Positions 1-18,193 of a stretch of 22,157 bases of DNA are shown one piece after another (the stretch's first letter is position 1; each line of letters begins with the position of its first letter). Source of the DNA: a virus; the IMG/VR virus record IMGVR_UViG_3300009152_000235, positions 1 to 22,157 of that record. One strand, 5' to 3'. Under the pieces are notes generated by a model. That model saw nothing but the letters and a program-made list of their open reading frames with translations, made no database searches and was not told the origin of the DNA. The translations under genes were made by a program, and so were the position numbers.

Positions 1-2556
1 ACTATATGAATTAAATTTTCTTAATATTTCTAAGCTTCCTGATAATTCTTTAATATCACTTTTAAGTCTTCTATCTGAAGTAGTTATAAAATTGTCAGCA
101 GTTACAAATTGACTTGTTTGTATATTCCCTGAAAATGTAGCTGTTACACCTGTTGCATTACCCGCAGTATATGATGTATTAATTTGACCTAACCTAGTTA
201 TTAAATTAGCTACTGATACGTCTACATCAGTACTTGAGCCCTGCGCTCCTGTTGTACCTTGTAAACCTGTAGGCCCTTGATTACCTTGAGCTCCTGCTGT
301 ACCCTGTAAACCTGTTATACCTTGATTTCCTTGAGTTCCCTGCCTTCCTTGAAATCCTTGTGTGCCAATTGTACCTTGTATACCTTGATTTCCTTGAGTT
401 CCTACAGTGCCTTGTAGACCTATTGTTCCTTGAGTACCTTGGTTACCTTGAGCTCCTGCTGTACCCTGTAAACCTGTTATACCTTGATTTCCTTGATTTC
501 CTTGATTTCCTTGAGCTCCTTGTGTTCCTTGCCTTCCTTGAAATCCTTGCACACCTTGAAATCCTTGCACACCTTGAACTCCTTGTGAACCTAATCCAGT
601 AATTACTCCTCTAAGAGTTGCACTACTATTTATTGTATTTATAAGTAATTTCTCATCTAAGGTTGAATTACTATTTAATGTTATACTTTGTGTAGTTATA
701 TTTAGATTAGTAGGATTTCCATTTTTGCCTATAAAATCAACTACAAATACATACTCCTCATCTATTTTATTTACAGGTAAGTTATCTAATGGAATCATCA
801 CACAGAATTCCTTTGGAGAATTACCTGACGGTGATGACGGTTCTACCTTCATACCTGAGAAATCCCAAATACCTGTATTTAATACTAGTGATAACTTTAT
901 TTTATCAGAATCTGATGCTGCTGTGAAGAAATATTCTAAATTATCTTGTCTTTCTCCATTACCACCCTCTAGGGTATCTATTAATGTGCCGAAGGAGTTG
1001 GATGTGTCACCTCCCTCCTCGATTGATGGGCCGTTTATAAATATCTGAGCAGTTGGTTTTGTTTTTGTTGCATCATATTTTGAAAATGCATTCAATGATA
1101 TCTTATACTTAGTTCCTGCCTTAGCTGAACCTAAAAATTGGTCTTTAACTGATAATGCTGTTACATTTGATTCAGCTAATGGTGATTCAAAACTTATAGC
1201 ATTTGTTACATTTGTACTACTCTGTACAGGATTTGGTACTGATAATCCTCCACTTGCTAATTCAAAGTTGTAGTTATCAAATGAATTAGAATTTGCATTA
1301 GTATTTACTTTGTATTCATTGTAATTAAAATAATTTGAGATGTCATTACTTGATGTGACCTCTCCCACACTTTTGTAGTCTATACCTAATTTAGGGTCAA
1401 ATGTATAACTCCCCGTATCTTGCATCTTGTTTGGAGGCATAACATCAAAATCACCTATAAACATAGGTGCTCCAATTGAACCAACAGGCTTTGCAGATAC
1501 TTTTACCTTATCAATAACTCCATTGGATGTTGCTACATTGTCAAAACACATTTTAGCATATCCTGTAACTTTTTGACCTTCAGATGTCTTTACATTTTTA
1601 TTATAATTTATAGAATATATATCTGATACAAATGAATCAACAACAAATTTAGTTGTATTACTTGTTATATTATGGAAAAATAAATTATCAACAACGATAG
1701 TTGTTGAGTTTAAGACTTCTAATATATTACCTACATATTCTGAAACAGAACCTATTTGAGACTGTAAATTAGGTGGGACTCTATCTATTACTATTGGAGT
1801 AGCTGTTATAGTTCCTCCAACCATATCTGATATGAATTCGGCTATCGTGCTAACTATTGTAGGATTTCCTTCAGTTGATACACTAGAACTTATACCCGTT
1901 GCAGATGACTGCTCTTCTACTTTTGATATTGAAGTATTATTTATATTAGATATAACTGATGGTTTATTTAAAATATTATTAGATGTTGTACTTGACTGAA
2001 TTATTGGAAAATATGTTAGCTTTCCTGTACCTGATTTTGTGGAAGGTCTATCTGTGGACTTATCCCTATATGATATATCTATAGGCGTTATTCTAACAGA
2101 TATATCTTTTGGATTTTTCTCGAATACTATATCATCAGGATTATTAGGTGTCTTAAATTCCTCTACAGCAGTATTTATTTGAGTTAATCCTCTCCATATT
2201 AAGTTCTGTCTTGATTGGTCTAGTGCTCTTAAGGTATCAACATCTCTAAATGCTTTACCTAATATTATTAGCTTTCCTGTACCTTTTGTTACAGTATCTT
2301 TTATGTCAATATGTAATATTATACTGCCACCTGAAGTTACTTGGTTTGTATATTCTACAGGAATATTTTTACCACTCCTATCTAATAACTCTACAGAAAT
2401 ACTAGAACCTGCTACTATTATTGGGTCAGGAGATAATGTGATAGTATTTTTACCTTTTTTTAATACCGTGAAATTTCTTGATACATTAAAGTATTTTAAT
2501 GAATAAGTATCTCCATCCCATCTCGCACCGTTTTTTACATACGATTCTAAACCCAT
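1..2556 (-). CDS. Collagen-like tail fibre protein with S74 chaperone start (3' end outside window)
   Basis: Reading from the ATG at 2556 the frame stays open to base 1, giving 852 residues with the C-terminus outside the window. The N-terminal ~150 residues look like Ig/beta-sandwich modules used by marine T4-like phage fibres (for example KGKNTITLSPDPIIVAG). The middle is beta-rich and may hold a carbohydrate-binding-like module. Residues 659-773 are 38 uninterrupted Gly-X-Y triplets, mostly Gly-X-Gln with almost no proline. Near residues 823-835 lies NFITTSDRRLKSD, the start of a peptidase S74 intramolecular chaperone, with candidate catalytic Ser827 and Lys832. In known S74 proteins the domain trimerises the fibre and then cuts itself off before that serine. 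The leader (AATATAAAATAAATATTAA) has no Shine-Dalgarno. Likely a trimeric receptor-binding fibre; the exact virion position cannot be read from sequence. Confidence 0.85.
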   Translation of the reverse strand, partial: MGLESYVKNGARWDGDTYSLKYFNVSRNFTVLKKGKNTITLSPDPIIVAGSSISVELLDRSGKNIPVEYTNQVTSGGSIILHIDIKDTVTKGTGKLIILGKAFRDVDTLRALDQSRQNLIWRGLTQINTAVEEFKTPNNPDDIVFEKNPKDISVRITPIDISYRDKSTDRPSTKSGTGKLTYFPIIQSSTTSNNILNKPSVISNINNTSISKVEEQSSATGISSSVSTEGNPTIVSTIAEFISDMVGGTITATPIVIDRVPPNLQSQIGSVSEYVGNILEVLNSTTIVVDNLFFHNITSNTTKFVVDSFVSDIYSINYNKNVKTSEGQKVTGYAKMCFDNVATSNGVIDKVKVSAKPVGSIGAPMFIGDFDVMPPNKMQDTGSYTFDPKLGIDYKSVGEVTSSNDISNYFNYNEYKVNTNANSNSFDNYNFELASGGLSVPNPVQSSTNVTNAISFESPLAESNVTALSVKDQFLGSAKAGTKYKISLNAFSKYDATKTKPTAQIFINGPSIEEGGDTSNSFGTLIDTLEGGNGERQDNLEYFFTAASDSDKIKLSLVLNTGIWDFSGMKVEPSSPSGNSPKEFCVMIPLDNLPVNKIDEEYVFVVDFIGKNGNPTNLNITTQSITLNSNSTLDEKLLINTINSSATLRGVITGLGSQGVQGVQGFQGVQGFQGRQGTQGAQGNQGNQGNQGITGLQGTAGAQGNQGTQGTIGLQGTVGTQGNQGIQGTIGTQGFQGRQGTQGNQGITGLQGTAGAQGNQGPTGLQGTTGAQGSSTDVDVSVANLITRLGQINTSYTAGNATGVTATFSGNIQTSQFVTADNFITTSDRRLKSDIKELSGSLEILRKFNSYS
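61..84 (-). other. Predicted S74 self-cleavage site (TSDRRLK motif)
   Basis: The minus-strand codons here read TTSDRRLK. The Ser codon (76-78) and Lys codon (61-63) are five residues apart, the same spacing as the Ser911/Lys916 dyad of phage K1F endosialidase. Cleavage would fall just before the serine, releasing the chaperone domain that begins here. The rest of that domain is outside the window. Confidence 0.75.
281..334. repeat. 54-base exact direct repeat, copy 1 (copy 2 at 443-496)
   Basis: Bases 281-334 and 443-496 are identical over 54 bases. The offset of 162 bases equals exactly 18 collagen triplets, so duplication or loss between them keeps the reading frame. The pair is a likely site for length change of the collagen stalk by recombination or slippage. 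Confidence 0.85.
443..496. repeat. 54-base exact direct repeat, copy 2 (copy 1 at 281-334)
   Basis: Second copy of the in-frame direct repeat in the collagen-like segment, identical to 281-334 and bounded by mismatches on both sides (442 against 280, 497 against 335). Confidence 0.85.
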
Positions 2557-2584: not shown

Positions 2585-3511
2585 TCACATATTAATCTTT
2601 GAAAACAGTTTATATCTATAAATATCATTTTCAGTAACTATATTGCTATTATTTATATATTCCCATACATTTTTAGTTCCTAATGAAGATGGGTCTTCTC
2701 CTACAGGCATATTAACAAAGTATGGATTCTTTCCAACATCTAAAACATATTTTGCTATTTTCAATATTGAATCTAACTCTCCTCCATCTAATGCTATATA
2801 AAAATTTTGGCAAGATGAACTAACAATCCTCTCCTTTACCTTATCATTAAGAAATTTTCCAAATAAAGGTATAGCATTTCTCTTTACTGCAATCGCATCA
2901 AAAATACCTTCCACAATAACTATATCATGACTCCAATCTATTATCGATTCTAAAAATACTTTATCTTTAGAGCATTTAGGATTGTTATACTTATTAGTTA
3001 CTATATTTTTAGATATGTAATAGTTTAAATTAAAAGAACTATCATAACTTGGTATAACTATGCTATCAGTAGTGTTATCTTCTGCGTATCCTATATTATA
3101 CTTTATGATATCATCATCTGATACATTTCTCGATTTCAAGTAATTTCGTAATCTGTTAGTATAAAAATTATCAATACATTTATCAAATGGAATAAAATTA
3201 CTAGGTAAGCTTACATTTTCATCAGTGCTCTTCTCAAATCTAACATTAGTATTTTCTAATTTAGAAATCTTTGCAATATCGCTGCTTTCAGCAGATACTT
3301 TTCGTAACAATTTAGTTAGGGTGTTACCACTTGACTTGCATACCCAACAATTCCATAGCCCACTGCTTAACTCAATCTCTAGTTTCTTTTTGTGATGATT
3401 ACAGAATGGACATGCAAGTGCTACATTCGTAGAACTTCTAGGTGAATAATCACCTAAATATTTGCTAACTATTCGAAGCTTTTCTATTTGCTCCATGGTG
3501 TAACTGCTCAT
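2585..3511 (-). CDS. DNA primase, T4 gp61-like (zinc finger plus TOPRIM)
   Basis: 308 residues, near the length of T4 gp61 (342). A four-cysteine zinc-binding site is formed by CPFC (34-37) and CWVC (55-58). A linker follows, then a TOPRIM-type core: IVIVEGIFDAIAV (197-209) with Glu201 as the expected acidic residue, FYIALDGGELDS (237-248), and NMPVGEDPSSLG (267-278), which matches the usual 'P.G.DP..LG' end of DnaG-type domains. The second acidic motif is odd: where most primases have D-x-D, this one has D-G-G-E-L-D. There is no helicase domain, so a partner helicase should be encoded elsewhere. The start ATG overlaps the stop of the upstream gene as ATGA, suggesting translational coupling; AAAGG just upstream could act as a weak ribosome site. 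A replication gene among virion genes is unexpected. Confidence 0.85.
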   Translation of the reverse strand: MSSYTMEQIEKLRIVSKYLGDYSPRSSTNVALACPFCNHHKKKLEIELSSGLWNCWVCKSSGNTLTKLLRKVSAESSDIAKISKLENTNVRFEKSTDENVSLPSNFIPFDKCIDNFYTNRLRNYLKSRNVSDDDIIKYNIGYAEDNTTDSIVIPSYDSSFNLNYYISKNIVTNKYNNPKCSKDKVFLESIIDWSHDIVIVEGIFDAIAVKRNAIPLFGKFLNDKVKERIVSSSCQNFYIALDGGELDSILKIAKYVLDVGKNPYFVNMPVGEDPSSLGTKNVWEYINNSNIVTENDIYRYKLFSKINM

Positions 3512-3915
3512 ATTCGACCTTTATAAAACTTTCCTAATATGTTAATGTTCAGATAATTATCTTTCTCTAAAACTTCTCTTATAAATTGATACTTGGTTTC
3601 TAAGTATGTCAATTCAATTTTGGAATAGGCAAATATAAGTATTTCTCTTTTAAATTCAGAATGTTTTTTTTCTTTTAATAGATTTTTTATTACATCATTA
3701 GAACCGTAATAGCTAATCCAATTTGATTCCTTTTCTACTAATCTTTTTTTCTTTGTTCCTTTTAATGGTGGTAACTTCCTATGGTATTTTATAACCTTTT
3801 TACCAATATACTTTTTATTTGTAGGAGTGTGTGTAACTTCATATATAAATCCATATACGTCTTCATTCGGCATATCTGATATCGTTTTTATTTCTCTACC
3901 CTCGAATATCCACAT
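3508..3915 (-). CDS. GIY-YIG-like nuclease-family phage protein
   Basis: 135 residues. YGFIYEVTHTPTNKKYIGKK (21-40) resembles the paired 'GIY ... YIG' strands of GIY-YIG nucleases, with FIY and YIG spaced as expected. WISYYGSNDVI (66-76), FKREIL (88-93) and a conserved-looking glutamate segment ELTYLETKY (101-109) follow, as in many short phage proteins annotated as GIY-YIG-like or Seg-like. The first strand lacks the canonical Gly-Ile-Tyr, and I cannot show that the catalytic Arg/Glu pair is intact. No DNA-binding domain is visible after the core, so a free-standing homing endonuclease is only one possibility; a repair or DNA-processing role is another. It overlaps the primase start by 4 bases. 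The leader is A-rich with no Shine-Dalgarno. Confidence 0.6.
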   Translation of the reverse strand: MWIFEGREIKTISDMPNEDVYGFIYEVTHTPTNKKYIGKKVIKYHRKLPPLKGTKKKRLVEKESNWISYYGSNDVIKNLLKEKKHSEFKREILIFAYSKIELTYLETKYQFIREVLEKDNYLNINILGKFYKGRI

Positions 3916-3933: not shown

Positions 3934-4200
3934 CTAGACGTATTTTGTTAATTCCAATACTACATAACCATTACCTTTTAGTAATCTATGGTAAACATTT
4001 TTTTTTATATAAGTGTTGTCTATCGGCTTCGGTAATTCATTATCTAATTGTATTAACCAATTATCTCCACCGTCTAATACTTTCAATAACCTATCCTCAG
4101 CATCCCTATGCCATACAAGTTCTGAATCATCTATATTTTCTGAGAATAATCTTGTGTATATGACGTTAGATATCTTAGTTTCCGAGTATGTATTAATCAT
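3934..4200 (-). CDS. Small cupin-like phage protein (WHRD...YHRL family)
   Basis: 88 residues. The pattern LVWHRDAEDR (28-37), DNWLIQLDNELP (46-57) and VYHRLLKG (69-76) matches a small protein family I recall from marine T4-like phages and some bacteria, often described as cupin-like. In that family the two histidines (here His31 and His71) and nearby acidic residues could bind a metal, but the biochemical role is unknown to me. It sits between the epimerase (28-base gap) and the GIY-YIG-like gene (18-base gap), in the same operon-like run. The start at 4200 is preceded by an A-rich, purine-rich leader without a Shine-Dalgarno. Confidence 0.65.
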   Translation of the reverse strand: MINTYSETKISNVIYTRLFSENIDDSELVWHRDAEDRLLKVLDGGDNWLIQLDNELPKPIDNTYIKKNVYHRLLKGNGYVVLELTKYV

Positions 4201-4228
4201 TATCTTTGTTTTTCAATGTATGCTAAGA

Positions 4229-5176
4229 CTAACTAAAATCTAATTTTAGCCATTCATAAAATTTACTAATACCATCATTCAATTTTACTGATGGTTGATA
4301 TCCTAAAATATTAATGGCTTTATCAATATTTGCATAAGTAACAGGAACATCTCCCATTTGAACCGAAAGTTTGTTATAAATTGCTTTTTTTCCAACTACC
4401 CTTTCAATAGTTTGAATAAGTTCAAGCAAAGTAACAGGGGAATTATTTCCTAAATTGATAATTTCATATAATGAGGATTCATATTTTAAACAAGAGACAA
4501 TACCATTTACAATATCATCAACATAAGTATAATCTCTTTTACTATTCCCATCTCCATATAAAGGAATTGGTTGTTCATTTGCTATCAGTTTTGTAAACTT
4601 ATGAATAGCCAAATCGGGTCTTTGCCTAGGCCCATACACAGTAAAGAAACGTAAGGCAAGAAATTGAATTTGGTATAAAGAGGAATATACCTGACCAATT
4701 AATTCGCCACTTACTTTGGAAGCAGCATAAGGACTTATTGGCTTAAGCACATTATCACTTTCTGACCATGGTACATTTTTATTTACTCCATAAACACTAC
4801 TTGAAGATGCAAATATGAATTTCTTAATATTTCTTTGTTTAGCAAATTCAAGTAGATTTTGTGTCCCAACTATATTTGTTTGGGTATACTTGAGTGGTTC
4901 TTCAATACTGAGGAGTACACCTGCCTTTGCTGCCAAATGTACAATTGTATCAAACCGTTGATTTAAAGATTCCAAATCTTTAATATTATTAATATCAAGC
5001 TCCTCAAATGTATAATTTTTATTAGTTAATGCAATTTCAATATTTTTTCTTTTTACATCTGAAGAATATAAAGTATCAAAATTATCAATGGCAGTAATTA
5101 TATGCCCTTCACTTAATAGTTTTTCTGAAAGATGACTTCCAATAAAACCTGCTGCTCCTGTTATTAGTATATTCAC
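4229..5176 (-). CDS. NAD-dependent sugar-nucleotide epimerase, UDP-glucuronate 4-epimerase-like
   Basis: 315 residues, complete for the extended short-chain dehydrogenase family. The Rossmann fingerprint GAAGFIG is at 7-13, and Asp31 at the end of the second strand is expected to bind the NAD ribose. HLAAKAGV (80-87) and the serine run before VYG (124-130) precede the catalytic YAASK (Tyr150, Lys154). RFFTVYGPRQRPDLAI (176-191) and YGDGNSKRDYTYVDD (207-221) are typical of UDP-glucuronate 4-epimerases and their relatives. It probably makes an activated sugar such as UDP-galacturonate, used either to change host surface polysaccharide or to decorate the virion; substrate is inferred, not shown. 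Four sampled 60-base lines average 36% G+C, against about 19% in three sampled lines of neighbouring genes, suggesting recent acquisition. The leader is nevertheless A-rich like the phage's own. Confidence 0.85.
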   Translation of the reverse strand: MNILITGAAGFIGSHLSEKLLSEGHIITAIDNFDTLYSSDVKRKNIEIALTNKNYTFEELDINNIKDLESLNQRFDTIVHLAAKAGVLLSIEEPLKYTQTNIVGTQNLLEFAKQRNIKKFIFASSSSVYGVNKNVPWSESDNVLKPISPYAASKVSGELIGQVYSSLYQIQFLALRFFTVYGPRQRPDLAIHKFTKLIANEQPIPLYGDGNSKRDYTYVDDIVNGIVSCLKYESSLYEIINLGNNSPVTLLELIQTIERVVGKKAIYNKLSVQMGDVPVTYANIDKAINILGYQPSVKLNDGISKFYEWLKLDFS

Positions 5177-5194
5177 ATTTTATAAATTAATATA

Positions 5195-5758
5195 TTACCA
5201 ATATCCTGAATAGTTTCTTCCTCCCCCCAAAGATTTCCAATATCTTGTTATTCTACATGCCCAATATCCTGAGGATGTTCTATCTGTTTTGTCACTACAA
5301 TTATGCCTATCTGCAAATGCTTTCCTCCTTTTAGGGTCATTTAATTTTACAGATAGTTTTCCTCCCCCATCTTTAGCACCAAACGATACTTTTTTAATAT
5401 TATCTGATTTAGGGTCTCTGACATATACATAGAATTTTTTACTTCCACCTCTTTTAGGTTTACCTAAATCTACATCTTTACCTTGATATTCTGATTCTTG
5501 TAATGGCATATCTAAAGGTACTTTCTCTCCCTCATATATACCATACTTACCGATATCTGTGTTTTCTAGTAGATGGATATCATCTTCGCAAAAATTTACT
5601 TTATTTTCAAAATGTAATTTACGACATTCTTCAAATAATTCTAAAAATTTTTCAGATGAGTACCTATAAATATTTTCCATTATAGGTATTTTATTATCTA
5701 TGTGATATTTCAACCCTTCTGAGATTGGTATTAACTCTTTAAGTTTTATCATATACAT
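5195..5758 (-). CDS. Phage protein with RHNC/GYWACR domain; possible packaged protein
   Basis: 187 residues. The C-terminal part contains KKFYVYVRDPKSDNIKKVSF (107-126), DPKRRKAFADRHNC (141-154) and SSGYWACR (162-169), ending in a Gly/aromatic tail. I recall this domain from many marine and freshwater T4-like phages, where its function is unknown; His152, Cys154 and Cys168 could bind a metal. The N-terminus, KLKELIPISEGLKY, has ISE-G at residues 12-15 and fits the (I/L)xE-(G/A) rule for T4 gp21-type prohead protease sites, so the protein may be packaged in the head and trimmed. The start could be the ATG at 5758 or the one at 5752 (MIKLKEL). The second resembles MIKIKH at the start of the neighbouring paralogue. 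Confidence 0.65.
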   Translation of the reverse strand: MYMIKLKELIPISEGLKYHIDNKIPIMENIYRYSSEKFLELFEECRKLHFENKVNFCEDDIHLLENTDIGKYGIYEGEKVPLDMPLQESEYQGKDVDLGKPKRGGSKKFYVYVRDPKSDNIKKVSFGAKDGGGKLSVKLNDPKRRKAFADRHNCSDKTDRTSSGYWACRITRYWKSLGGGRNYSGYW

Positions 5759-5766
5759 TTTATTTT

Positions 5767-7569
5767 TTACTTAGCATATTCTTTATATCTTTCTTTTTGT
5801 TCAGGAGTTGCTGCTTCGAGTTCATAGTCTTGTAAGTTCCCATAATGAGCCTTTAGTAGTTTATCAATCCATTTTTCTTTTTGTTCTTGTGTTGCTTCCT
5901 CAAATTCGTATTTTTGTATGTCCCTATTGTTTTTTATTTTAGAATCTATATATTTTTCTTTCTGTTTTTGAGTTGCTACTTTGAAATGAAAGTCTTTTAG
6001 ATAATATCCTTTATTTAATGTCCAATCTATATAGTCTTCTTTCTGTTTTTGAGATGCTGCTTCGAATTCATAATCTCCTAATAAATCTTCGCTTTCCATC
6101 CTCCAATCTATATAATCTTCTTTCTGTTTTTGAGGTGCTGCTTCGAATTCATATTTTTCAAGTTTATATCTATTTTTAATCTTAGCATCTATATATTTTT
6201 CTATTTGTTCGGGAGTTGCAAAATCTAATTCATATTTTTCAAATCTATGATATCTATCATCAATCTTACTATTTATAAATCTTGTCTTTTGTTGTTCCGT
6301 TGCTGCTTTAAATTCATAAGATGTTAAAAATATGTCTTTATCTAATTTAATATTAATACTTTCCTCTTTTTGTTCAGGAGTTGCTAAATCTAATTCATAT
6401 TCTCGTAAAGGTTTTTTATATTCCAATTTTTTAGATATTATTTCACTTCTAATATCTTTAGGAGCTCCTTTAAATTCATAATCTTTTATTTCTCGCTCAT
6501 CTTTTAAAAGTATTCTTATATATTCTTTTTTTTGACTCTGAGATGCAAAATTATATTGAAAGTCATATAGTCTAAGCTCTCCTTTTATTAATCTATCGAT
6601 ATATTGTCTTTTATCTTTTAAAGGGAGAGATACAAATTCTGCTTTAGATAATCCTTCTTTATCTTGCAATTTTTTTAATGCTCTTTTTTGTATAGTTTCT
6701 CTGTCTTCAATTTCACCTCTTTGACTATCTTTGTATAAACATCCTAATCTTTCATAGCTTCCCGACAACTTTTGTGTTTTTTCCATGTAGTCATCTACTT
6801 CATCCATAAATTTTTCAGGATTTGGTATAGAACCGTAAGTTTTATATTCAGGATATAATACTACGTCTTCTTCGTTTTCTGTGTTTATATATGGTTTTAT
6901 TAAAACTCTTCCTAAAGGTTTTTTTAAATTAGTGTCACTTAATGTAGTTAAGTAACATATTATAGAACCTTCTTTTATATCTAACTTTACATAGTGTCTA
7001 TTGCTTCCTCTAATAACATTCATACAACTGTCCCAATAAGAATCTCTATCTGTAGACATTCCTATAATATCATATTTAGCACTTGAAAATATAATCATCA
7101 AGTCCTCATCTTTTTTAGTAGCACCTTTGCTTTTTATAGCCGCATATCTATCTATTAATTCTTTAGCATCTGATTCTTTTTTTGATACTATGTTTAATGC
7201 TTTTCCTAATGATATTTCTCTGTTACTTTTAGTATCTAATGCTACTCCATCTTTGTAATCTTTTATAGAAAAGTTGTATGGTTCTAGTACAGCTTGTATT
7301 TCAAATTCAGTGGAATCTTCTGCATATGGAAATGCTATTCTCCAACCACGCTTGTCTATTTGACGTGCATTTGGTAATGATTTTAATTTATTGAATACTT
7401 CTTTTATTCTTGTTTCTGCTTCAGGACTTCTTTCTATAGTCATGTATTCTTTAGCTACTGAATACGGAACTGCTTCAGTAAGTTTAACATAGTCATATGC
7501 TTCAGTTAAAATATTTAGTATATTCTTTAGGTAATTATTTTTCATATCTTTATGTTTAATCTTTAGCAT
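5767..7569 (-). CDS. Tandem repeat paralogue A (600 aa), putative internal head protein
   Basis: Unrecognised function. Residues 1-23 form a leader ending ILTE; Ala24 follows, and KLTE-A recurs at 30-33. Both fit the (I/L)xE-A cleavage rule of T4-type prohead proteases. Residues ~34-300 are a conserved domain shared with the two upstream paralogues. It includes RIAFPYAEDSTEFEIQAVLE (77-96), FSSAKYDIIGMST (161-173), YWDSCMNVI (178-186, Cys182), GSIICYLTTLSDTNL (201-215) and LGRVLIKPY (219-227). Residues ~307-600 are about 11 degenerate ~27-residue repeats, consensus L-x-x-YEFEAATPEQKEKYID-x-KI, likely paired helices. It overlaps the end of paralogue B by 14 bases, and Met9 is an alternative start. 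It could be a host-takeover protein injected with DNA or a structural head component; neither is shown. Confidence 0.7.
   Translation of the reverse strand: MLKIKHKDMKNNYLKNILNILTEAYDYVKLTEAVPYSVAKEYMTIERSPEAETRIKEVFNKLKSLPNARQIDKRGWRIAFPYAEDSTEFEIQAVLEPYNFSIKDYKDGVALDTKSNREISLGKALNIVSKKESDAKELIDRYAAIKSKGATKKDEDLMIIFSSAKYDIIGMSTDRDSYWDSCMNVIRGSNRHYVKLDIKEGSIICYLTTLSDTNLKKPLGRVLIKPYINTENEEDVVLYPEYKTYGSIPNPEKFMDEVDDYMEKTQKLSGSYERLGCLYKDSQRGEIEDRETIQKRALKKLQDKEGLSKAEFVSLPLKDKRQYIDRLIKGELRLYDFQYNFASQSQKKEYIRILLKDEREIKDYEFKGAPKDIRSEIISKKLEYKKPLREYELDLATPEQKEESINIKLDKDIFLTSYEFKAATEQQKTRFINSKIDDRYHRFEKYELDFATPEQIEKYIDAKIKNRYKLEKYEFEAAPQKQKEDYIDWRMESEDLLGDYEFEAASQKQKEDYIDWTLNKGYYLKDFHFKVATQKQKEKYIDSKIKNNRDIQKYEFEEATQEQKEKWIDKLLKAHYGNLQDYELEAATPEQKERYKEYAK
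5770..6651 (-). repeat. About 11 degenerate ~27-residue YEFEAATPEQKEKYID repeats (paralogue A)
   Basis: The C-terminal half of paralogue A is built from units such as YELDLATPEQKEESINIKLD, YEFEAASQKQKEDYID and YELEAATPEQKERY. The aromatic/acidic YEF, the A-A-T-x-E-Q-K and the Y-I-D positions recur every 27 or so residues. The first units (SEFVSLP- and FASQSQKK-like) are shared in order with the other paralogues. The unit length and helix-favouring residues suggest a solenoid of two short helices per repeat. I do not recognise the family. Confidence 0.85.
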
Positions 7570-9538
7570 ATTCTTTGTATCTTTCTTTTTGCTCAGGAGT
7601 CGCTGCTTTAAGTTCGTAGTCTTTTAATTTTTCTTTTCCCCTAAGAATATAATTTATATAGTTTTCTTTTTGGTTTTTTGAGATTGCATTAAATTCATAC
7701 TCTGCTAATGAATATCCTATCTTAATTCTTCTATTTATATATTCGTCTATCTCATTTTGTGTCAAATGTATAAAGTCTTTAGTTTCTAATCTTTCTCCTT
7801 CATCACGTTTACTGTTAATATACGTTTTCTTTTGTTTAGAATTTCCATATTCTATAATCCAATCAGGTATGCTAATTTCTTTAGAAAGCAAATAATCAAT
7901 ATATCTCTCTTGGTCTTTTTTAGATGCTTTAGCAAGATTATTCGAATGTACTAATTCTTCGTATTGGTCTGTTTCTATTAATTTATTTATATATTTTTCA
8001 ATTTGTTTTTCGGTTAAGTCATATCGAGAACTACGTTTTCTTATCTCATGAATATGGTTTTCTATTATGTAATCTACTAAAATTTCCATATTTCTACCTG
8101 ATAAATTATCTGCCGTATCTTGATATATAGATTCATTATTTTTGTATAAATTAGATATATAGTTTAGGAATTGGTCTTCTGACATTAAACGTATTTCAAA
8201 ATTTGAAAAATGTTTTTTACCTTTCTCTAATACCCTTTCTATATAAAATTTTTGTTGCTTATCTGATAATTCTTGTAGATACGATTCAGGTATACTCATA
8301 AACTTTTTTGCTATTTGTTTATCTATATATCTATCTTTTTGTTCAGTGGTTGCTGCTTCAAATTCATAGTGATATATGCTACCTACATCATTTTCTAATT
8401 TGTAATCAATTATTTCATATTTTAATTCTTTATGTGCTAATTTAAATTCATAACCTTCTATATATTCCTCATTTTTTAAACGTCTTCTTATGTAAAATTT
8501 CTTTTGACTTTGTGTAGCAAATGAATATATTACCTTTGAAAGTCTTTTCTCCTCTTTATTCAATTCATCTATATAAATCTTTTTATTTTTTGATGGAAGA
8601 GATACAAATTCCATAGAAGTTAAACTATTCCCTTCCTTTACTTTATTTAATGCTCTTTTTTGTACAGTTTCTTTACTTTCTACAGAAGTTCTGTCACTAT
8701 CATTATATAAACATCCTAATCTGTCATAAACTCCTGAAATAGATTGAGTTTTTTCCATATACTCATCTACAATATCTATAAATTTTTCAGGATTTGGTAT
8801 AGAACCATAAGTTTTATACTCTGCATATAGTATTACATCTTTAGGATTTTCTGAATTTAAGTATGGTTTTATTAATATTCTTCCTAAAGGTTTTTTTAAA
8901 TTAGTGTCACTTAATGTAGTTAAGTAACATATTATAGAACCTTCTCGTATATCTGCCTTTATATAGTGTCTATTGCTTCCTTTAATAACATTCATACAAC
9001 TGTCCCAATAGGAGTCTCTACCTGTTGACATTCCTATGATATCATACTTAGCACTTGAAAATACTATCATCAAATCACTATCTTTCTTTGTAGCACCTTT
9101 GCTTTTTATAGCCGCATATTTATCCATTAAATCTTTTGCATCAGGTTCTTTTTTTGAAACTATGTTTAATGCTTTTCCTAATGATATTTCTCTATTGTTC
9201 TTGGTATCTAATGCTACTCCATCTTTGTAATCTTTTATAGAGAAGTTGTATGGTTCTAGTACAGCTTGTATTTCAAATTCAGTAGAGTCCTCCGCATATG
9301 GAAATGCTATTCTCCAACCACGCTTGTCTATTTGAAGAGCATTCGGTAATGATTTGAGTTTGCTGAATACTTCTTTGATTATTGATTCTGCTTCAGGACT
9401 TCTTTCTATAGTCATGTATTCTTTAGCTACTGAGTATGGAACTGCTTCAGTAAGTTTGACATAGTCATATGCTTCAGTGAGTACGTTTAGTATACTTTTT
9501 AAGTATATGTATGTATTTGTATGTTTAATCTTTATCAT
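7556..9538 (-). CDS. Tandem repeat paralogue B (660 aa), putative internal head protein
   Basis: Middle copy of the family. Its leader reads MIKIKHTNTYIYLKSILN and ends VLTE, with Ala23 after the predicted cut. The domain at ~33-300 matches paralogues A and C closely: YAEDSTEFEIQAVLE, SSAKYDIIGMSTGR (161-174), YWDSCMNVI (Cys181) and ILIKPYLN. About 13 repeats follow; they are the most diverged of the three arrays, and several units lose the YEFEAAT core (for example residues ~395-560), while the last unit returns to YELKAATPEQKERY. The start overlaps the end of paralogue C by 14 bases and its own end overlaps paralogue A by 14 bases. The alike junctions suggest that the duplicated unit ran from start to start. 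Function unknown; packaging in the head is inferred from the leader. Confidence 0.7.
   Translation of the reverse strand: MIKIKHTNTYIYLKSILNVLTEAYDYVKLTEAVPYSVAKEYMTIERSPEAESIIKEVFSKLKSLPNALQIDKRGWRIAFPYAEDSTEFEIQAVLEPYNFSIKDYKDGVALDTKNNREISLGKALNIVSKKEPDAKDLMDKYAAIKSKGATKKDSDLMIVFSSAKYDIIGMSTGRDSYWDSCMNVIKGSNRHYIKADIREGSIICYLTTLSDTNLKKPLGRILIKPYLNSENPKDVILYAEYKTYGSIPNPEKFIDIVDEYMEKTQSISGVYDRLGCLYNDSDRTSVESKETVQKRALNKVKEGNSLTSMEFVSLPSKNKKIYIDELNKEEKRLSKVIYSFATQSQKKFYIRRRLKNEEYIEGYEFKLAHKELKYEIIDYKLENDVGSIYHYEFEAATTEQKDRYIDKQIAKKFMSIPESYLQELSDKQQKFYIERVLEKGKKHFSNFEIRLMSEDQFLNYISNLYKNNESIYQDTADNLSGRNMEILVDYIIENHIHEIRKRSSRYDLTEKQIEKYINKLIETDQYEELVHSNNLAKASKKDQERYIDYLLSKEISIPDWIIEYGNSKQKKTYINSKRDEGERLETKDFIHLTQNEIDEYINRRIKIGYSLAEYEFNAISKNQKENYINYILRGKEKLKDYELKAATPEQKERYKEYAKD
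7559..8623 (-). repeat. About 13 diverged ~27-residue repeats (paralogue B)
   Basis: Beginning near MEFVSLPSKNKKIYIDEL and ending in YELKAATPEQKERYKEYAKD, this region keeps the ~27-residue period (recurring Y-I-D/N or Y-I-E/S every unit), but the side chains of the central units differ widely. This suggests older or relaxed repeats compared with those of paralogue A. Confidence 0.75.
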
Positions 9539-11612
9539 ATTCTTGGTATCTTTCTTTTTGTTCAGGAGTTGCTTCTATATATTCAAAAGAGTTTAATTGT
9601 TCCTTGTTATTTATTTTTTTTTCAATATACTTTTCTTTTTGTTCAGGAGTAGCATCTTTAAACATATCATAACTCAAAATCATATCATATTTTACTGAAT
9701 AATTTCTAATTATCCAATTAATATATTTTTCTTTTTGTTCTTTAGTTGCTATATTATATTCATAATTTCGTAATATTTTACTATCCTTCATTCTTAAATT
9801 AATATACTTTTCTTTTTTTTCAGCACTTATGAAATCCAAATCAGTTTCGCTAAGTCCCAAATAGCGTTCTGATTTAATATTAAAATATTCCTCCCATGTT
9901 TCTTTAGATAATACCATAAGTTCATTTTGATGTAAATAATTACCACTCCTGATAATTAACTTAACATATTTTATTTGTTGTTCTGTAGTAGCTATTAAAA
10001 GTTCATAGTCTTGTAATCTTTTATTACTGTCTATTAAATATTCAATATACTTTTCTTTTATATTTTGTGACATATACTTAACATATGAATCACTAGCTCT
10101 ATATCCGTTTTGTATATACCAATTAAAATGTTTTTCCTTTTGTTTTTCTGTTGCTATAGCAAATTCGTAGTCTTCTAAATTTGTACTATATATTATACTA
10201 TCAATATACTTTTCTTTTAAATTTTGTGACATATACTCAAATGAATACTTATTGAGTCTTTTTCCGTTTTTTATAACTACATTATAATATTTTTCTCGTT
10301 GCTCTTCTGTTGCTAACTCAAGTTCATCGTTTTGTAAAAAATTTCCATCTTCTATTTTTATATCCATATGTTTTCCTCTTTGCTCAGGAGTAGCTTGTTT
10401 ATATTCATAGTCTTCTAATTGTACCTTGTTATTTAATTTATAATCTATTATTTCTTTTTTTGAATCTTTAGGTGCTCCATTAAATAAAAAAGGATATATT
10501 CTCTCTTTATTTTTAATAAAAGTTTTTATAATATTTTTCTTTTGACTCTGTGATGCGTATGAATACTTAATGGGAATTATATAACCATACAACTCTAAAT
10601 TATTTTTAATAAAATCATCTATACTCTTTCTTTTTATTTCTAATGGAAGTGATACGAATTCTGAATCTTCTAGTTCTTCACCATTTTCAAACTTTTTTAA
10701 TGCTCTTGTTCTTATAGTTTCTTTCCCTTCTATGGTATCTCTTTCACTATCAGGATATAAACATCCTAATCTTTCATAGCTTCCCGACAACTTTTGTGTT
10801 TTTTCCATGTAGTCATCTACTTCATCCATAAATTTTTGAGGATTTGGTATAGAACCATAAGTTTTAAGTTCAGCATACAATACTACGTCTTTTTTATCTT
10901 CTGTGTTCAAATATGGTTTTACTAGAACTCTTCCTAATGCTCTTTGTAGGTTAGTATCACTGACTGTAGTCAAGTAACATATTATAGAACCTTCTTGTAT
11001 ATCTAGCTTTACATAACGACTATTGCTTCCTTTAATAACATTCATACAACTGTCCCAATCACCAAATTCAGGTAAGTTTCTACCTGTAGACATTCCCGCA
11101 ATGTCGTATTTAGCACTTGAAAATATAATCATCAAGTCCTCATCTTTCTTTGAAGCACCTTTACCTTTGATAGCTGCATACCTGTCTATTAATTCTTTAG
11201 CATCAGGTTCTTTTTTTGAAACTATATTGAGTGCTTTCCCCAATGATATTTCTCTATTGTTCTTGGTATCTAATGCTACTCCATCTTTGTAATCTTTTAT
11301 AGAAAAGTTGTATGGTTCTAGTACAGCTTGTATTTCAAATTCAGTGGAATCTTCTGCATATGGAAATGCTATTCTGTATCCACGCTTGTCTATTTGACGT
11401 GCATTTGGTAATGATTTGAGTTTACTAAATACTTCTTTTATTCTTGTTTCTGCTTCAGGACTTCTTTCTATTTCAAGATATTCTTTAGCTACTGAATATG
11501 GAACTGCTTCAGTAAGTTTAACATAGTCATATGCTTCGGTAAGTATGCTTATTATAGAATGTATTCTTAAATCTGTACTATTTCTTAAATTTTTGGTATA
11601 GGAAACTTTCAT
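9525..11612 (-). CDS. Tandem repeat paralogue C (695 aa), putative internal head protein
   Basis: First-transcribed and longest copy. The first 24 residues (MKVSYTKNLRNSTDLRIHSI...) are unlike the A and B leaders, yet the sequence then joins the invariant ILTEAYDYVKLTEAVPYSVA. A variable leader before a fixed (I/L)xE-A site is what a removable targeting peptide would look like. The conserved domain carries a small insertion (NLPEFG, 179-184) in the loop between MSTGR and WDSCM (Cys189). About 14 repeats follow from residue ~314, ending YIEATPEQKERYQEYDKD. The start at 11612 is preceded by TATAAAAGAATATATAA, without a Shine-Dalgarno, in the longest intergenic gap of the window. That gap may carry a promoter for the triplet. 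Enzymatic function of the conserved domain cannot be named from sequence. Confidence 0.7.
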   Translation of the reverse strand: MKVSYTKNLRNSTDLRIHSIISILTEAYDYVKLTEAVPYSVAKEYLEIERSPEAETRIKEVFSKLKSLPNARQIDKRGYRIAFPYAEDSTEFEIQAVLEPYNFSIKDYKDGVALDTKNNREISLGKALNIVSKKEPDAKELIDRYAAIKGKGASKKDEDLMIIFSSAKYDIAGMSTGRNLPEFGDWDSCMNVIKGSNSRYVKLDIQEGSIICYLTTVSDTNLQRALGRVLVKPYLNTEDKKDVVLYAELKTYGSIPNPQKFMDEVDDYMEKTQKLSGSYERLGCLYPDSERDTIEGKETIRTRALKKFENGEELEDSEFVSLPLEIKRKSIDDFIKNNLELYGYIIPIKYSYASQSQKKNIIKTFIKNKERIYPFLFNGAPKDSKKEIIDYKLNNKVQLEDYEYKQATPEQRGKHMDIKIEDGNFLQNDELELATEEQREKYYNVVIKNGKRLNKYSFEYMSQNLKEKYIDSIIYSTNLEDYEFAIATEKQKEKHFNWYIQNGYRASDSYVKYMSQNIKEKYIEYLIDSNKRLQDYELLIATTEQQIKYVKLIIRSGNYLHQNELMVLSKETWEEYFNIKSERYLGLSETDLDFISAEKKEKYINLRMKDSKILRNYEYNIATKEQKEKYINWIIRNYSVKYDMILSYDMFKDATPEQKEKYIEKKINNKEQLNSFEYIEATPEQKERYQEYDKD
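9528..10673 (-). repeat. About 14 degenerate ~27-residue repeats (paralogue C)
   Basis: Units include YEYKQATPEQRGKHMD, DELELATEEQREKYYN, YEFAIATEKQKEKHFN and YEYNIATKEQKEKYIN. They alternate with a second flavour containing MSQNLKEKYIDSII or MSQNIKEKYIEYLI. The two near-identical MSQN units are three repeats or fewer apart, suggesting internal duplication of a multi-repeat block. Confidence 0.8.
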
Positions 11613-17506: not shown

Positions 17507-18193
17507 TTATACAGTAATATTTGCAGCAGAAGAGTTTGTTTGAGTCAGTCTATTTACTGTCAATTCAATAGTAACTCTACCACCTGTTTCATTTCCTATA
17601 ATAGTCAATGTTGACTTCTTTGACCTAATAGTGGAAAACTTACCTGAAAGAACAAATGAAGTTCCACTAACAGTTACTGTTTGAGATGATTCTAAATCAC
17701 TAATAGCTAATGGTACACTACTAGCTGTATCTTGACCTGATGCTTGAGCAGGTGATGGTGATACTGAAACAAATGTTGCTACATCACTATCACTTAATAC
17801 AGCTGTATACCCCAATGCAATATTTCCACTTGGAAAGTTTACAGTGTTGGGAGTTATAGTTATTCTATCTGTTGGAGATTTGAATGTATATGAATTTTGA
17901 GCTACTGATACCACAGGAATTCTAATAGTATTCTTAGGTAGGGTAACTAATGGGTATTTCATAACTTGAGTTTCATCGGTAACTGCTTCTGTAATCGGAA
18001 GATTTTCTATAGTTCTTCCGTAATATGCACTTCCTAGTGGATGGTCACTATTCCACAAAGTATAGTCTATTTCGTCATCTGCTAATGCGAAATACGTTAC
18101 TCTAAATTCATTTTGTCCTCTTGCCAACAATTCTCTGCCTTTTTTTGTAAGAACTGCATCAATAACAATCGAGGAATTGTTTAAATATCCCAT
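17507..18193 (-). CDS. Conserved phage structural protein (VLTKKGRELLARGQ family)
   Basis: 228 residues. The first ~75 are the conserved part: MGYLNNSSIVIDAVLTKKGR, then ELLARGQNEFRVTYFALADD (21-40), HPLGSAYYG (51-59) and IENLPITEA (62-70). I recall this block from structural proteins of T4-like and other large phages of marine and Bacteroidota hosts. The remainder (about 85-228) is Ser/Thr/Val-rich and predicted by eye to be Ig-like beta sandwich, ending in TIELTVNRL. It lies between the giant structural gene and the 360-residue protein, consistent with a neck, tail or baseplate component. The leader ATAATAAAAAAACTTTAAT has no Shine-Dalgarno. The exact place in the virion is not known. Confidence 0.7.
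   Translation of the reverse strand: MGYLNNSSIVIDAVLTKKGRELLARGQNEFRVTYFALADDEIDYTLWNSDHPLGSAYYGRTIENLPITEAVTDETQVMKYPLVTLPKNTIRIPVVSVAQNSYTFKSPTDRITITPNTVNFPSGNIALGYTAVLSDSDVATFVSVSPSPAQASGQDTASSVPLAISDLESSQTVTVSGTSFVLSGKFSTIRSKKSTLTIIGNETGGRVTIELTVNRLTQTNSSAANITV

Follow-up and report, generated by a model that had tools for sequence, protein, structure and literature searches.

A sugar-nucleotide epimerase gene of bacterial ancestry between two usually adjoining late genes of an aquatic phage: sequence support for a lineage-specific capture

Genes at the locus

The window, meaning the whole 22,157-base virus record that was analysed, comes from a phage of aquatic bacteria, and its main genes all lie on the minus strand (Table 1). 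They comprise tail and virion genes, three related 600-695-aa proteins, a 187-aa gene, an epimerase gene (hereafter EPI), an 88-aa gene, a GIY-YIG protein, a primase and a collagen-repeat tail protein. EPI is an intact ORF of 315 aa with a GTG start, found exactly where a previous sequence-only reading had located an epimerase gene in operon orientation. The product matches the Pfam families Epimerase and GDP_Man_Dehyd (E about 1e-59) and phrog_540, nucleotide-sugar epimerase (6e-84). The A-rich leader described in that reading is right in kind, the gap that precedes the GTG being made entirely of A and T.

Table 1. Features of the epimerase locus and of related loci. Positions are those of the window unless a locus (L number) is given.
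Feature	Position	Strand	Evidence or remark
EPI, sugar-nucleotide epimerase gene, putatively captured	4229..5176	(-)	Matches in Pfam and PHROG; best solved-structure matches; conserved catalytic and carboxylate-binding residues
Left junction region, gap from 187-aa gene stop to EPI GTG	5177..5194	(-)	18 nt, all A/T; alignment with L084-L086
Right junction region, gap from EPI stop to 88-aa gene	4201..4228	(-)	28 nt, A-rich
Upstream neighbour, 187 aa, phrog_7595 (function unknown in PHROG)	5195..5758	(-)	Usually adjoins the 88-aa gene
Downstream neighbour, 88 aa, no family match	3934..4200	(-)	Pfam scan and comparison with relatives
GIY-YIG protein, PF19835 SegE_GIY-YIG	3508..3915	(-)	Pfam; also in L084-L089
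DNA primase-like protein, phrog_47	2585..3511	(-)	Pfam/PHROG scan
Collagen-repeat tail protein, truncated by the record end	1..2556	(-)	Pfam/PHROG; in relatives, followed by Thr-Pro-rich protein and glycosylation gene cassette
Glycosylation cassette	L084:8935-14173, L085:5750-10181, L086:6679-11428		Directly after Thr-Pro-rich protein and collagen-like tail gene
Leader-bearing cargo-like proteins	5195-5758 and 5767-11612; L089:6019-8377; L013:16418-18790		Candidates by shared N-terminal leader motifs

Some neighbouring genes call for comment in their own right. The label "NAD synthetase" that phrog_447 attaches to the GIY-YIG protein conflicts with its Pfam assignment and is probably wrong. 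The 600-695-aa proteins are three tandem paralogues (5767-11612) whose copy number and position differ among relatives, some lying after the primase; the 600-aa copy, the one scanned, matched no family in Pfam or PHROG. Short N-terminal leaders with (L/I)-x-E motifs (MIKLKEILQEA, NILTEA, LLKES) recur among cargo proteins that are unrelated to one another, and we take these motifs to resemble the cleavage motif of T4 internal head protein propeptides. One of these proteins has an HD domain and another is ART-like by eye, with no Pfam match; EPI has no such leader. By analogy with the capsid-targeting sequences of T4 internal head proteins, as treated in part of PMC9026906, the leader-bearing proteins may be packaged and injected.

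Empty sites, composition and codon usage

Three viral contigs (L084, L085 and L086) whose flanking proteins are 94-99% identical to those of the window lack EPI, and in them the 187-aa gene runs directly into the 88-aa gene; the net insert relative to these contigs, computed from lengths, is 991 bp. The 187-aa protein was found in 80 loci, 77 of which have both neighbours (78 with L089); several of the 78 duplicate others or are only remotely similar, with identities as low as about 41%. The gap between the 187-aa and 88-aa genes is below 150 bp in 59 of the 78 and wider in 19, none of which holds an epimerase: 18 contain other genes and one (197 bp) has no ORF of 40 aa. Searching 275 loci of the phage group with EPI returned a single match, L438, at 29% identity. 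Given the empty site in relatives, the tight adjacency of the neighbours and this lone distant match, a gain of EPI in this lineage appears far likelier than loss in the others. That EPI was ancestral to the group and lost wherever it is now absent is, in our view, very unlikely. Only one genome carries the gene, and by itself that genome cannot separate gain from loss; against a loss stand the neighbours that adjoin in 59 of 78 loci across this range of identity, the lack of any relative with an epimerase at the site and a codon usage unlike that of the remaining genes (see below).

The same gap can evidently take up other genes. In L089 a GIY-YIG/NUMOD1 endonuclease gene (L089:8379-9317) occupies the place that EPI has in the window, and this, together with the widened gaps elsewhere, would suit a passenger gene of little benefit whose insertion this permissive intergenic site tolerates. 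The intact reading frame and the retained catalytic residues of EPI speak against it, and we consider this reading quite improbable. Still less probable, indeed the least probable of the alternatives weighed here, is an assembly chimera in which bacterial DNA was joined into a viral contig. EPI is known from one metagenomic contig, with no second close copy in IMG/VR, but the insert consists of one gene that points the same way as the operon and joins phage genes cleanly on either side, whereas a chimera usually joins two contig ends.

No target-site duplication was seen at the junctions, nor any mobile-element signature, the two junction regions having no common word of at least 8 nt. When aligned with L084, the 88-aa gene is identical at 18 of its first 30 nt and 97-100% identical over the remainder, and the imported segment probably reaches about 30 nt into this gene. 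Such local divergence is also seen elsewhere than at the junction, the 187-aa gene matching at 42 of its first 60 nt. Because the diverged stretch enters the 88-aa gene and no target duplication accompanies it, we infer that the segment may have been imported by recombination, the partner being a related phage in which EPI was already present.

Foreign base composition had been the original ground for proposing a capture: 36% G+C in sampled lines of the gene against 19% in its surroundings. This contrast is absent from the sequence. The whole gene has 29.7% G+C and the window 29.4%, an equality with the average that the sequence-only reading had itself named as counting against its claim, and foreign G+C is hereby ruled out as evidence of capture. 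The GC3 of EPI is 15.2%, other genes having 13-28%, and EPI is equalled or exceeded in G+C by 40% of sliding 948-bp windows. Among full 60-base lines, the 15 inside EPI average 30.2% G+C and the 352 outside 29.4%; in random draws, four EPI lines reached at least 87 G+C in 3.7% of cases, and three outside lines held 35 or fewer in 0.5%. Such low frequencies indicate that the two sampled values came from unrepresentative lines or from an error in hand counting. EPI thus lacks the base composition unlike the recipient that marks a recent capture, a mark that is dispensable if the donor was AT-rich too. The composition test in fact has little power here, since some of the nearest bacterial genes have a G+C of 31-35%. 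A capture can escape G+C analysis when donor and recipient are both AT-rich, and it is codon choice (ATA versus ATT) that exposes EPI.

The full-gene codon comparison proposed in the sequence-only reading came out in its favour. EPI shows the largest deviation in synonymous codon usage of the 14 window genes (z 5.4), followed by the primase (3.7). The chief term is isoleucine, written ATA at 7 of 32 positions in EPI (22%) and at 380 of 553 elsewhere in the window (Fisher p 1.7e-7). A caution is that ATA usage is also low in the virion gene at 17507-18193 (5/16), so that strong expression, too, could shift this codon. Among 27 bacterial relatives with gene G+C below 37% (one of them counted twice, as L167 and L246), the ATA fraction ranges from 0.03 to 0.45 and brackets the 0.22 of EPI. 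By these measures the synonymous codon choice of EPI is foreign to the phage. As a separate observation, the phage writes 69% of its isoleucines outside EPI as ATA; no tRNA gene was found in the window.

Ancestry of the epimerase

Among the matches listed, the closest bacterial proteins are 56-60% identical to EPI and belong to Saprospiraceae, Chitinophagaceae, other Bacteroidota and two candidate-phyla genomes, while the best viral ones are L002 (50%) and L263-L266 (48-49%), named phages reaching up to 39.6%. The L002 epimerase lies at a contig end in an orientation opposite to the adjoining genes and may be host DNA; it was scored as viral in the tree. The maximum-likelihood tree has 95 rows, including 45 bacterial and 47 viral, thinned from a pool of 181. 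The minus-strand-match loci L249, L253, L254, L256, L259 and L261 were left out of this pool, and the tree omits L246, which duplicates L167. The sequence-only reading had asked for a phylogeny against Bacteroidota and held that a place deep among phage epimerases would speak against it. EPI falls instead in a clade of 31 rows (support 100/98) that consists of EPI and 30 bacterial sequences, mostly Bacteroidota, with none of the 47 viral rows. Within it, the grouping with the two candidate-phyla sequences is weak (83/89). In AU tests, a position of EPI as sister to the 30-row bacterial clade rather than inside it was not rejected (p 0.259), and a grouping with the viral L264 and L266 was borderline (p 0.050). 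On this phylogenetic evidence, we regard EPI as being of bacterial descent.

Neither the targeted genome samples nor the matches listed in collection scans included a donor above 60% identity. In the Bacteroidota sample, 17 of 395 genomes had matches at E<=1e-105, and among 396 genomes from the order to which the Saprospiraceae hit belongs, 4 did at E<=1e-116, none above 60% identity in either case. Of 395 genomes from the order of the Chryseobacterium hit, none matched at E<=1e-112; in the class of the Microgenomates hit, the one genome among 281 that passed E<=1e-105 was the query genome itself. A donor closer than 60% may exist beyond the matches listed. The claim that the capture was recent therefore holds in one direction: relative to the 94-99%-identical sister phages it stands, but the nearest bacterial relative among the matches listed is only 60% identical.

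Taken at the level of sequence, the record offers an intact enzyme gene, bacterial ancestry, absence from near-identical relatives and deviating codon usage, and a lineage-specific capture of a bacterial sugar-nucleotide epimerase gene is supported. The earlier idea of a captured bacterial gene is thereby retained on grounds other than the G+C difference first offered for it, namely the empty site, the tight adjacency of the flanking genes, the bacterial clade and the codon usage. We consider it fairly probable that EPI represents the lateral acquisition of a UDP-glucuronate 4-epimerase from a Bacteroidota-like bacterium, either directly or via another phage, between two late-region genes that usually adjoin. 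Phage-borne sugar epimerases are well known; what is unusual in this otherwise familiar type of event is how clean the empty-site comparison is. Occupied and empty sites in sisters this similar amount to a nearly isogenic pair, which makes the effect of one captured gene on phage or host glycans testable.

Predicted enzyme, fate of its sugar and comparison with known systems

The AlphaFold model of EPI has a mean pLDDT of 96.3, and its top four Foldseek matches among solved structures are all of the Bacillus cereus UDP-glucuronic acid 4-epimerase (TM 0.95, 40% identity), in which we take Lys153 to be a catalytic partner. EPI carries the Rossmann glycine motif (G7, G10, G13) and the Tyr-x-x-x-Lys pair (Y150, K154). 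According to the parts of PMC7984243 and PMC12338863 that deal with the B. cereus enzyme, Tyr149 is the base, the carboxylate is held by Thr126, Ser127, Ser128 and Thr178, and Arg185 stabilises the product; decarboxylases have Glu at the Ser128 position (PMC7984243, same part). EPI is identical at Tyr149, Lys153, Ser127, Ser128, Thr178 and Arg185, its own residues being Tyr150, Lys154, Ser126, Ser127, Thr179 and Arg186, so that the Glu marking decarboxylases is absent and Ser127 takes its place. The Thr126 position is Ser125 in EPI, and Ser is also present there in all 45 bacterial rows and in 5u4q. As sequence, predicted fold and carboxylate-holding residues agree, EPI is predicted to be, probably, a UDP-glucuronate 4-epimerase of the extended SDR type with UDP-galacturonate as product.

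The best NCBIfam match is to another activity, galE (TIGR01179), although its 180.4 bits fall below the cut-off of 262.3; no model among the best 25 of 34 reached its cut-off. A GalE-type UDP-glucose/UDP-galactose or UDP-GlcNAc 4-epimerase would have an outlet in the relatives L084-L086, whose UDP-galactopyranose mutase could turn UDP-galactose towards galactofuranose glycans. We nevertheless find this assignment unlikely: EPI keeps the UDP-glucuronic acid 4-epimerase residues, Thr179 and Arg186 of EPI are replaced by Asn and Asp in the UDP-GalNAc epimerase WbgU, and the closest folds are UDP-glucuronic acid 4-epimerases.

Under the preferred assignment to UDP-glucuronate 4-epimerase, EPI, inserted between the 187-aa and 88-aa genes and oriented for reading with both, would encode an NAD-bound short-chain dehydrogenase that oxidises C4 of UDP-glucuronate via Tyr150/Lys154. 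The keto-sugar would then turn, its carboxylate held by Ser125-Ser126-Ser127 and afterwards by Arg186, and reduction would yield UDP-galacturonate, with the host UDP-glucuronate pool as the presumed substrate source. No UDP-glucose dehydrogenase gene was recognised in the window, and a UDP-glucose dehydrogenase-like match lies within about 4 kb of only 4 of the 80 nearest bacterial relatives, which therefore lend no support to this enzyme as a functional neighbour. On the viral side, 39 of the 80 epimerase loci L263-L342 have such a match within about 5 kb, which suggests virus-encoded two-step routes to UDP-galacturonate.

More speculatively, the sugar could supply glycosyltransferases in late infection. 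Behind the collagen-like tail protein of L084-L086 come a Thr-Pro-rich protein, a PF11397 (GlcNAc) glycosyltransferase, a 394-aa protein and a UDP-galactopyranose mutase. The Pfam scan covered the L084 copies, those of L085 and L086 being matched by N-terminal sequence and length; the 394-aa protein had no Pfam family match (L084 copy), and the L084 cassette has an extra weak glycosyltransferase-25 match below cut-off (E 0.001). The cassette is known from these three contigs, several genes away from the EPI site, and the window record ends inside the collagen gene. Since these glycosylation genes come right after the collagen-like and Thr-Pro-rich proteins, virion decoration by the sugar of EPI is plausible, roughly on a par with host polysaccharide and leaning to the virion. 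The likeliest users would then be the phage's own cassette of the L084-L086 kind, giving decorated tail adhesins.

Alternatively, the same captured enzyme may serve to alter the host surface polysaccharide (capsule or LPS), for example excluding competing phages, with no part in the virion. The bacterial relatives of EPI seem to be set among glycosyltransferase and capsule genes (neighbours read by eye), and in the portions of PMC7824862 and PMC9602691 that treat phage sugar-epimerase clusters these are cast as host-surface modifiers, a role invoked there more often than virion decoration. The position of the glycosylation genes in close relatives, adjoining Thr-Pro-rich and collagen-like proteins, fits protein decoration instead, and the window shows no recognisable gene for a polymerase or for export; we hold host-surface modification to be possible, if not likely. 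Returning to the virion, a wider proposal is that the phages of this group glycosylate their collagen-like and Thr-Pro-rich tail adhesins by a pathway of their own, and that the present genome added galacturonate, a new sugar, to its coat via a captured bacterial epimerase. We put this forward tentatively and with some doubt; if true, it would be a natural case of phage glyco-diversification through single-gene capture.

Compared with known systems, EPI differs from the B. cereus UDP-glucuronic acid 4-epimerase (PDB 6zl6 and related entries) in having Ala for Pro85 and Ser for Gln211, and in coming from a virus record. The Bacteroidota UDP-sugar epimerases (L166, L167, L168, L169 and relatives) are 56-59% identical to EPI over the full length and share its 100/98 clade, but they reside in bacterial genome contigs with flanking genes unlike those of EPI, and the donor is not among them. 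The phage nucleotide-sugar epimerases, represented by phrog_540 and by those of cyanophages S-H68 and ACG-2014f, phage C48C1 and Immutovirus, belong to the same broad family and have a probable glycan role in common with EPI, yet the four named are 29-40% identical to it and sit on other branches of the tree; as far as the tree can tell, EPI is an acquisition separate from the named phage epimerases. In phage C48C1 the epimerase stands beside a primase and a UDP-glucose dehydrogenase, and Immutovirus, whose virion proteins are related to those of the window, has a glycosylation cluster with an epimerase 29% identical to EPI.
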